64,000 bases of DNA from Nonomuraea soli. GTDB lineage: Bacteria; Actinomycetota; Actinomycetes; Streptosporangiales; Streptosporangiaceae. A program made the position numbers and the translations under genes. Location of the stretch: the NCBI RefSeq assembly GCF_013761175.1, contig NZ_JACDUR010000001.1, positions 1,178,001-1,242,000 of the forward strand, read 5' to 3'. The notes under the pieces were generated by a model. The model saw only the letters and a program-made list of their open reading frames with translations, made no database searches and had not been told where the DNA came from. This document shows, one piece after another, positions 23,670 through 25,423 of the stretch. Positions within the stretch are counted from its first letter, which is position 1, and each line of letters opens with the position of its first letter.

Positions 23670-24647
23670 TCAGTTGGCGTGCAGGGCCGCGTTGAGCTCG
23701 ATCCCGGTGCCCTGGCGCTGCACGGCCTCCACGGCGCCGTTGCGCGAGTTGCGGCGCAGCAGGAGCCCGTTGCCGCCGGACAGCTCCTTGGCCTTGACCA
23801 CGCGCCCGTCGGGCAGCGCCACCTTGGTGCCCGCCGTCACGTACAGCCCGGCCTCGACCACGCAGTCGTCGCCGAGCGAGATCCCGATGCCCGAGTTGGC
23901 GCCCAGCAGGCAGCGCTCGCCGACCGAGATGACCTCCTTGCCGCCCCCCGACAGCGTGCCCATGATCGAGGCGCCGCCGCCCACGTCGGAGCCGTCACCC
24001 ACGACCACGCCCGCCGAGATGCGCCCCTCGACCATCGAGGCGCCCAGCGTGCCGGCGTTGAAGTTGACGAAGCCCTCGTGCATGACCGTCGTGCCCGAGG
24101 CCAGGTGCGCGCCGAGCCGTACGCGGTCGGCGTCGGCGATGCGCACCCCGTACGGCATGACGTAGTCGACCATGCGAGGGAACTTGTCGACCCCGTAGAC
24201 CGCCACCGCGCCGCGCGCGCGAAGGCGCAGCCTGGTCCGCTCGAAGCCCTCGACCGGGCACGGCCCGTGGCTGGTCCACACGACGTTGGCGAGCAGGCCG
24301 AAGATCCCGTCGAGGTTCAGCCCGTGGGGACGCACCAGGCGCGACGACAGCAGGTGCAGGCGCAGGTAGGCGTCGTGCGTGTCGGCGGGCGGCTCGGACA
24401 GCTTGGCGATGGCGGTGCGCACCACCACGACCTCGACGCCGCGCGCCGGGTCGGGACCGGCCAGCTCGGCGAACTCGGCGAACTCGGCGGCGCGCTCGTC
24501 GCCCGCGGTCAGCCGCTCGGTGCCGACGAAGGACGGCTCGCCCAGCTCGGGCGCGGGGAACCAGGTGTCGAGGACGGTGCCGTCGGCGGCGACGGTGGCG
24601 AGGCCCGTGCCGTAGGCGCCGGTCACGGTGGGATCGAAAGCAGTCAC
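23670..24647 (-). CDS. dapD: 2,3,4,5-tetrahydropyridine-2,6-dicarboxylate N-succinyltransferase
   Basis: Catalyses the succinyl-CoA-dependent acylation of tetrahydrodipicolinate in lysine and diaminopimelate synthesis, needed for peptidoglycan. The 325-residue protein has the actinobacterial-type N-terminal domain and a C-terminal left-handed beta-helix built of hexapeptide repeats ([39 protein letters not shown]), with the catalytic region [12 protein letters not shown]. Start is a GTG at 24647 with only a weak GGG upstream. A tRNA gene on the same strand ends 17 bases before the start, so the two are probably cotranscribed. Confidence 0.95.
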
Positions 24648-24664
24648 GTGCCCAAACTACTGGG

Positions 24665-24737
24665 TGCCCTGGGTGGGATTCGAACCCACACTTGACGCTG
24701 TTTGAGAGCGCTCTCTCTGCCGTTGGAGTACCAGGGC
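24665..24737 (-). tRNA. tRNA with anticodon CAA (leucine anticodon, class I shape)
   Basis: A 73-base cloverleaf can be folded completely: acceptor stem GCCCTGG/CCAGGGC with discriminator A73, anticodon stem GCGCT/AGCGT with loop CTCAAAC (anticodon CAA), variable loop of five bases (CAAGT), T stem GTGGG/CCCAC with loop TTCGAAT. U8, A14, A15-U48, U33 and A37 are in place; the D stem has three pairs with a C13-A22 mismatch. CCA is not encoded. Leucine tRNAs normally have a long variable arm; this one does not. By anticodon it reads UUG, but the amino acid is uncertain. Confidence 0.85.
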
Positions 24738-24739
24738 AA

Positions 24740-24825: not shown

Positions 24826-24841
24826 TACTCTTGCGCTCGTG
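24826..24841 (+). promoter_or_regulatory. -10 box TACTCT, leaderless start of pdtaR
   Basis: TACTCT at 24826-24831 is followed by seven bases and the GTG start codon, the pattern of a leaderless transcript. No Shine-Dalgarno sequence is present. Confidence 0.5.
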
Positions 24842-25423
24842 AGTACGCAGCGGCGAGTAGTGATCGCGGAAGACGAGGCCCTGATCCGCCTTGACCTCAA
24901 GGAGATGCTCCAGGAGGAGGATTACGTCGTCGTGGGCGAGGCCGGCGACGGCGAGAGCGCGATCAAACTGGCCACCGAGCTCCGCCCCGACCTGGTCATC
25001 CTTGACGTGAAGATGCCCATTCTCGACGGAATCTCGGCGGCCGAGCGCATCGTGGCCGAGCGGATCGCCCCGTGCCTGATCCTGACCGCCTTCTCCCAGC
25101 GTGACCTGGTCGAGAGGGCCAGGGACGCCGGCGCGATGGCCTACCTGGTCAAGCCCTTCACCAAGGCCGACCTGGTCCCGGCGATCGAGATGGCGGTGAG
25201 CCGTCACGAGGAGATGGTGGCGCTCGCCCAGGAGGTCTCCAGCCTCAGCGGCCAGCTCGAGACGCGCAAACTGGTCGAGCGGGCCAAGGGTCTGCTCATG
25301 GCCAAGCACGGCTGGAGCGAGCCGCAGTCCTTCCGCTGGATCCAGAAGGCCTCCATGGACCGCAGGCTGAGCATGAAGGAAGTCGCCCAGCTCGTCATCG
25401 ACGACGCGGCCCAGAACGGCTGA
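24839..25423 (+). CDS. pdtaR: ANTAR-domain response regulator (RNA-binding antiterminator), PdtaR-like
   Basis: A 194-residue regulator that acts on RNA: the ANTAR domain binds paired hexaloop hairpins and prevents termination. Receiver domain with E11/D12, phosphorylation site Asp56 (VILDVKMP) and the lysine in YLVKPFTKAD; linker coiled coil; ANTAR domain from about residue 125 with RAKGLLMAKHGWSEPQSFRWIQKASM. It resembles M. tuberculosis PdtaR, partner of the kinase PdtaS, and its position a few genes from pyk is conserved in actinobacteria. The GTG at 24839 is chosen over longer in-frame starts, which would run into the tRNA. Confidence 0.94.
   Translation: MSTQRRVVIAEDEALIRLDLKEMLQEEDYVVVGEAGDGESAIKLATELRPDLVILDVKMPILDGISAAERIVAERIAPCLILTAFSQRDLVERARDAGAMAYLVKPFTKADLVPAIEMAVSRHEEMVALAQEVSSLSGQLETRKLVERAKGLLMAKHGWSEPQSFRWIQKASMDRRLSMKEVAQLVIDDAAQNG

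Follow-up and report, generated by a model that had tools for sequence, protein, structure and literature searches.

The window analysed here is a 64,000-nucleotide stretch of the genome of Nonomuraea soli (assembly GCF_013761175.1, contig NZ_JACDUR010000001.1, positions 1,178,001 to 1,242,000 of the forward strand). Its single tRNA gene was called by ARAGORN as tRNA-Leu(caa) at positions 24661-24738 on the minus strand, and the Rfam tRNA model RF00005 matched exactly positions 24665-24737 with 54.1 bits (cut-off 29, E 7.3e-9). From these calls, the fold and the covariation of relatives, the class I tRNA-Leu(CAA) gene was placed at 24665..24737 (minus strand), 73 nt up to the discriminator A73. 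The acceptor stem (7/7), the anticodon stem (5/5, one pair being G-U) and the T-stem (5/5) are fully paired, the D-stem has 3 bp, and energy minimization gave this cloverleaf (-27.6 kcal/mol, z -2.6). The variable loop has 5 nt, whereas a class II arm has at least 10 nucleotides. A preliminary description of the sequence had proposed a complete 73-base class I cloverleaf with the anticodon CAA and no long variable arm, and this was confirmed. Likewise, A14, A73 and the A15-U48 Levitt pair that it had named were all read from the sequence, together with G18G19. With the CAA anticodon and the A20a region, these make up the bacterial tRNA-Leu identity set. The gene is followed immediately 3′ of A73 by CCCA (24661..24664, minus strand). 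Since the gene lacks CCA at the usual position, it would have to be added to the tRNA.

The gene lies between two protein-coding neighbours. dapD (23670..24647, minus strand; DapD_actino, TIGR03535, 527.9 bits, cut-off 441.5) has the orientation of the tRNA and starts 17 bp downstream of it. A response regulator gene (24839..25423, plus strand), with a receiver domain (PF00072, 94.1 bits) and an ANTAR domain (PF03861, 76.4 bits), is divergent from the tRNA and marks the locus in other genomes. We take it to be pdtaR-like, a name given in the preliminary description. In M. tuberculosis, the 77-nt gene leuX is presumably located near the tRNA-Leu(CAA)/pdtaR locus. The orthologous loci beside dapD and pdtaR, which had been suggested for comparison, contain the tRNA gene in relatives. 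In several relatives, the tRNA and dapD are separated by a nuclease gene or by other inserts. The distance between the two genes is ~37 kb in one of them, G011 (G011:C55:14523-52103; L367, L368).

To describe the leucine tRNAs of the genome, its 10.09 Mb in 21 contigs were searched with RF00005, and all 61 matches were then analyzed by ARAGORN. The window tRNA is the sole CAA tRNA among the 61. The other leucine tRNAs are UAA (class I, 74 nt), CAG (class II, with a second copy of class I), GAG (class II) and UAG (class II). Among the 61 matches, the UUR codons have no tRNA of class II, with either CAA or UAA. Hence, the second, class II tRNA-Leu(CAA) whose existence had been raised earlier was not found. 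Since the CAA and UAA tRNAs are both class I, both UUR codons seem to depend on short-loop tRNAs. The closest other tRNA in the genome is tRNA-Leu(UAA) with 71% identity, followed by tRNA-Asn with 70%.

The genes for leucyl-tRNA synthetase (LeuRS) were also counted. At E 1e-60, a threshold at which a second gene scoring only in pieces could be missed, a single LeuRS gene was found in 16 of 17 class I genomes and in 13 of 13 class II genomes. Because nearly all genomes tested have one LeuRS gene, a single LeuRS likely accepts both tRNA shapes within a cell, charging the UUR tRNAs of class I as well as the CUN tRNAs of class II.

Some features of this tRNA and synthetase set were observed in addition. 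The genome of N. soli possesses two LeuRS genes, one of 817 aa and a second bacterial-type frame of 1001 aa (G000:C2:738949-741564), and two genes were found in none of the 29 other genomes tested. We rejected the idea that the second LeuRS is dedicated to class I tRNAs, since the 16 other class I genomes show one at the E 1e-60 threshold. The second, class I tRNA-Leu(CAG) adjoins an unusual extra tRNA-Pro(UGG) (L072, G000:C6:769702-769949) and may have been acquired. At another locus (L080, G000:C4:478032-478360), three divergent tRNAs, Ala(UGC), Glu(CUC) and Met(CAU), are clustered, and their anticodons are also found in copies elsewhere in the genome.

The two forms of tRNA-Leu(CAA) were then surveyed in 296 Actinomycetia genomes (at least 90% complete), the same set being used for both patterns. 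The exact class I pattern was detected in 177 genomes and the class II pattern in 69, whereas both were present in none and neither in 50 (Fisher p 3e-35 for the exclusiveness, relatedness uncorrected). With up to 3 mismatches allowed, a looser class I tRNA-Leu pattern, which picks up mainly CAA and UAA tRNAs, was present in 246 of the 296, and its reversed control in none. Among 119 genomes of the phylum, the class I CAA pattern was found in 6/109 outside Actinomycetia and in 4/10 inside. A scan of named genomes gave at least 118 class I loci, 108 actinobacterial by title and 10 from other phyla. Among the matches listed, the class I loci include Streptomyces, Mycobacterium, Corynebacterium, Bifidobacterium, Nocardioides, Micromonospora and further genera. 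Also among the matches listed, the tRNA stands alone in 105 of the 108 actinobacterial loci, while the median number of tRNAs within 8 kb is 23 for the 10 loci of other phyla (at least 4 in 9/10). A pdtaR relative lies within 500 bp in 83/108 of the listed actinobacterial class I loci and in 33/37 class II loci examined. Since this neighbour is shared by both forms, one locus is occupied by either class in turn. Both the shared locus and the exclusiveness of the two forms are shown by these data. Thus, the short form is the commoner form of the UUG tRNA in Actinomycetia and not an oddity of one genome.

The intergenic DNA was also searched against 41 genomes, and ARAGORN, run on 30 loci, gave both kinds of tRNA-Leu(CAA) at this position. 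Among 25 genomes of the genus of N. soli, 17 have class I (N. soli included), 7 have class II and one (L029) has no tRNA on a short contig. When the classes were placed on a pdtaR tree of 25 loci, of which one belongs to another genus and in which only 4 of the 22 inner branches are starred, they did not cluster: 6 changes were counted against a mean of 6.2 for shuffled labels. At least two class changes are forced by the starred branches, and one sister pair (97/94) differs in class. The class I and class II tRNAs of the genus differ in several stems, for example in the acceptor (GCCCCGG versus GCCGGAA). Because the differences extend to the acceptor and T stems, horizontal exchange of the complete gene is favoured over loss of the arm in place. 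The window tRNA shows its best identities, 91.8% and 89%, to copies of other families, whereas the best value in the genus is 83.6%. An acquisition from outside the genus would fit these identities, in which 73 nt carry little signal.

The constraint on the family was analyzed with 48 aligned class I sequences out of 108 distinct ones. In the stems, 97.6% of the cells were paired and both-side changes occurred at 16 of 20 pairs, each value being reached in 0/500 shuffles. A weaker measure, the number of further pair types, was matched by 18/500 shuffles. When the stem partner was slid, the pairing signal was destroyed. The window tRNA gene is genuine and its family is constrained. Among the 119 distinct actinobacterial class I tRNA-Leu that the parser could read, A14 and A73 were each present in 119/119, and A15-U48 in 116/119. 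The other three possess G15-C48, a both-side change of the tertiary pair. In the 46 non-leucine tRNAs of N. soli itself, A15-U48 was found in 8/46. E. coli LeuRS needs A73, A15-U48, G18G19 and A20a, and variants without the long arm are still active, so that the arm is not crucial (PMC9976931). Given this independence of the long arm, the window tRNA is predicted to be an ordinary leucine tRNA for UUG. Three class I tRNA-Leu(CAA) copies of f18 genomes (L401, L406, L413) have C48 and fail the A15-U48 parser; they offer a test case for LeuRS identity.

UUG had been described as a rare codon, and it accounts for 18 of the 9185 aligned codons of the window. The reading frames of the window were aligned to the syntenic regions of two genomes of the genus, G018 with a class II and G010 with a class I tRNA-Leu(CAA). 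Against G018, 14 of the 18 UUG codons stand opposite leucine codons (6 UUG, 6 CUG and 2 CUC); against G010, 10 of 14 do so. In the same alignment to G018, the values for comparison codons were 28/33 for CUU and 473/553 for CUG. Such alignments bear on charging with leucine indirectly.

The tRNA-Leu(CAA) locus is a known phage attachment site. In cluster J mycobacteriophages, a 44-bp core is common with the tRNA-Leu gene Msmeg_3245 (PMC3706429). The core of phage Courthouse, as read from its sequence, spans the anticodon loop to the 3′ end and includes a class I variable loop. Phage Gaia integrates at the same tRNA-Leu-CAA of M. smegmatis with only an 8-bp core; the gene is not restored, and the phage carries its own copy (PMC10865867). 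In our analysis, this copy was read as an 84-nt class II tRNA (NC_026590, L440:9121-9204). In the main text of PMC10865867, "class II" is absent and "variable" appears once, about colonies. The cluster J core implies a class I host gene. If so, integration of Gaia would be a natural case in which a class I gene gives way to a class II one. In the G011 insert, no obvious integrase was seen among the open reading frames within 3 kb of the tRNA, which were inspected by eye with no family search.

Short leucine tRNAs are also common in phages, including those of actinobacteria. The window tRNA matched 62 phage records, and the class I tRNA of a relative matched 217. Leucine tRNAs of 73-78 nt were confirmed in phages of E. 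coli (Felixounavirus, CAA), Erwinia, Pseudomonas, Lactobacillus and Prochlorococcus (L435-L439), hosts whose own tRNA-Leu is taken to be class II. At least 120 viral contigs possess the class I CAA pattern, and 91/120 among the matches listed have at least four tRNAs nearby. The actinobacterial class I copies show a mean best identity of 0.825 to phage and tRNA-array class I copies, 0.726 to class II tRNA-Leu and 0.744 to non-leucine tRNAs, and the phage and array copies are the closest in 114/119, a comparison that is biased because the viral contigs were picked with the actinobacterial pattern. In a tree of 158 tRNAs, the 63 columns were too few to show where class I came from.

Many relatives have, next to the tRNA, a gene that encodes a protein of ~253 aa (for example L369:2510-3271, minus strand; further loci L395-L424). 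The protein has an N-terminal helix-turn-helix and two LAGLIDADG-like motifs, of which D77 and D178 are invariant in 42 sequences. Its structural model is confident, with a predicted local distance difference test score (pLDDT) of 90.3, and most resembles LAGLIDADG homing endonucleases and WhiA, a related regulator. Both the LAGLIDADG fold and the two acidic motifs were found. Against PF14528 the protein scored 12.2 bits, below the cut-off of 22.5, and no NCBIfam model matched. Most database names call it a helix-turn-helix protein, and two UniRef names a DOD-type homing endonuclease. We regard it as a putative LAGLIDADG-type nuclease on the basis of its motifs and the model.

The nuclease gene is associated with the locus. 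Among the best 30 nuclease loci, 29 contain tRNA-Leu(CAA), 23 of class I and 6 of class II, and the thirtieth is on a contig that lacks this tRNA. The gene lies on the 3′ side of the tRNA at 38-136 bp in 28 of these best 30 and behind a tandem copy in one. It is on the other side of the tRNA in four f19 genomes and far from it in five f6 genomes. In total, 64 of the 296 genomes carry the gene, and that of N. soli does not. Confinement of the gene to class I was rejected, since it was also found at class II loci. A number of copies appear to be broken or truncated, among them L005, L011, L019, L027 and L135. From their sequences, gain and decay of the nuclease look as in a homing cycle.

Based on these results, we consider it highly probable that the gene is a class I tRNA-Leu(CAA), for which reading of UUG as leucine and charging by LeuRS are predicted, and that it is an alternative allele to the class II form, the two apparently having been swapped repeatedly. 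Very probably, the product of the window gene is an ordinary leucine tRNA for UUG whose body is unusual; its charging is predicted. A73, A14, A15-U48, G18G19 and the end of the D loop would be kept for LeuRS, and the long variable arm would be dispensed with. The two classes would be alternative alleles of one tRNA gene that repeatedly replace each other among actinobacteria, probably by horizontal exchange of the whole tRNA gene and not by loss of the arm in place. The likely vehicles, which we infer, would be phages that integrate with their own tRNA-Leu(CAA), plus the LAGLIDADG-type nuclease gene that adjoins it in many relatives. Such swapping by selfish elements is plausible but unproven. 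The further proposal, that phages and a resident homing endonuclease keep swapping the tRNA-Leu classes and that a phage-borne short-arm family took over UUR decoding in much of Actinomycetia, is put forward tentatively and with some doubt.

Several observations weigh against this reading. For the unmodified transcript of the window tRNA, the centroid fold swaps the anticodon arm for another hairpin, and the cloverleaf makes up only 0.10 of the ensemble. A scan around the gene detected no sigma-70-like promoter and no terminator. Something other than leucine stands opposite UUG in 4/18 cases in G018 and in 4/14 in G010, where one is a stop. Among the 50 genomes with neither CAA pattern, 15 class I variants and one class II tRNA were recovered by ARAGORN at nuclease loci, and 34 genomes remain unassigned. 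The mean identity of class I tRNA-Leu to the nearest non-leucine tRNA, drawn from a far larger set, is higher than that to class II tRNA-Leu. Since non-leucine tRNAs are no farther than class II tRNA-Leu, this speaks against a simple descent of class I from class II. When the inserts of relatives (L367-L374) were searched for attachment-site repeats of the tRNA 3′ end, only matches of up to 11 bases were found. Presence of the nuclease gene does not single out class I, as it was found in 22/177 class I, 12/69 class II and 30/50 unassigned genomes, and the window's own locus has neither this gene nor an insert.

The same observations bear on the other explanations. A pseudogene or a chance fold might be suspected from the short loop, the centroid structure and the missing promoter match; however, the both-side changes at 16/20 stem pairs, the position of the gene as the only CAA tRNA of the genome and its retention across Actinomycetia make this scarcely credible. 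If the tRNA were an anticodon-shifted member of another isotype charged by another synthetase, UUG would be recoded or mistranslated. A73 is present in 26/46 and A14 in 46/46 of the non-leucine tRNAs of N. soli, so these nucleotides are not leucine-specific, and the slightly greater closeness to non-leucine tRNAs points the same way. However, the best match in the genome is tRNA-Leu(UAA), ahead of tRNA-Asn, A15-U48 is found in few of the non-leucine tRNAs, UUG mostly stands opposite leucine in the class II relative, and the tRNA alternates with the class II tRNA-Leu(CAA), no genome of the 296 having both. We consider this explanation very unlikely. A role outside the ribosome, such as peptide or lipid aminoacylation, with UUG read through wobble by tRNA-Leu(UAA), would be compatible with the rarity of UUG and the ability in principle of UAA tRNAs to read it, and aminoacyl-tRNA-dependent enzymes exist in actinobacteria (PMC12945691). 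However, class I CAA tRNAs also occur in small genomes of 1.2-1.5 Mb (family f23), the class I form is a strict alternative to class II, pdtaR and dapD point to no special pathway, and the genome's own tRNA-Leu(UAA) is class I as well, which leaves such a role highly improbable. Of the alternatives in the preliminary description, the atypical tRNA-Leu reading UUG is thus supported, whereas other charging or use outside the ribosome has little in its favour. Finally, class II genes might have lost their variable arm repeatedly and so become class I in place, horizontal exchange playing no part. The activity of arm-less E. coli tRNA-Leu (PMC9976931) and the similar D loops of both classes are in agreement with this. 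Nevertheless, the several stems that differ between the forms in the genus, including the acceptor, and the closer, though biased, resemblance of class I to the phage and array copies than to class II tRNA-Leu render it unlikely.

The alternation of a short and a long tRNA-Leu(CAA) would have several consequences. In reviews, tRNA-Leu is counted among the class II tRNAs (PMC7609411). In a search of open-licence PMC papers, none was recognised, in the parts of the texts that it covered, as describing a class I tRNA-Leu as the standard actinobacterial UUR tRNA, which is no proof. The short form is the commoner one for UUG in a large bacterial class, and in the genome of N. soli both UUR tRNAs are short. 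The natural allele pairs make the purpose of the long arm directly testable. The findings are relevant to the flagging of isotype conflicts by annotation tools, to rare-codon regulation through actinobacterial UUR tRNAs, and to the replacement of an essential tRNA gene by a differently built one. If the proposal of swapping by selfish elements is true, such elements compete over one essential tRNA gene throughout a whole class of bacteria.

Among known systems, the class II tRNA-Leu(CAA) of actinobacteria and other bacteria agrees with the window tRNA in the anticodon, A14, A73, A15-U48, the D loop (GGCAG or GGTAG) and the locus beside pdtaR. However, the window form lacks the long variable arm, and its acceptor, anticodon and T stems differ. 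Animal mitochondrial tRNA-Leu(UUR) also reads UUR codons with no long arm and with A73 and A14 as identity elements, and the human one is leucylated without the long variable arm (PMC9976931); unlike the window tRNA, it is organellar and charged by a mitochondrial LeuRS; the resemblance is one of design only. A tRNA-Leu(UAG) in a Mycobacterium tRNA cluster is likewise an actinobacterial tRNA-Leu with a short variable loop, but it is an extra copy and was contrasted with a normal long-loop isoacceptor (PMC6582537). The class I tRNA-Leu of phages and tRNA arrays shares the short loop and the leucine identity set; it lies mostly in arrays and has several anticodons, whereas the actinobacterial gene mostly stands alone. 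In the tRNA-dependent lysogeny of Gaia, the host tRNA-Leu-CAA is disrupted and the phage supplies its own (PMC10865867), as in the exchange of alleles proposed here.
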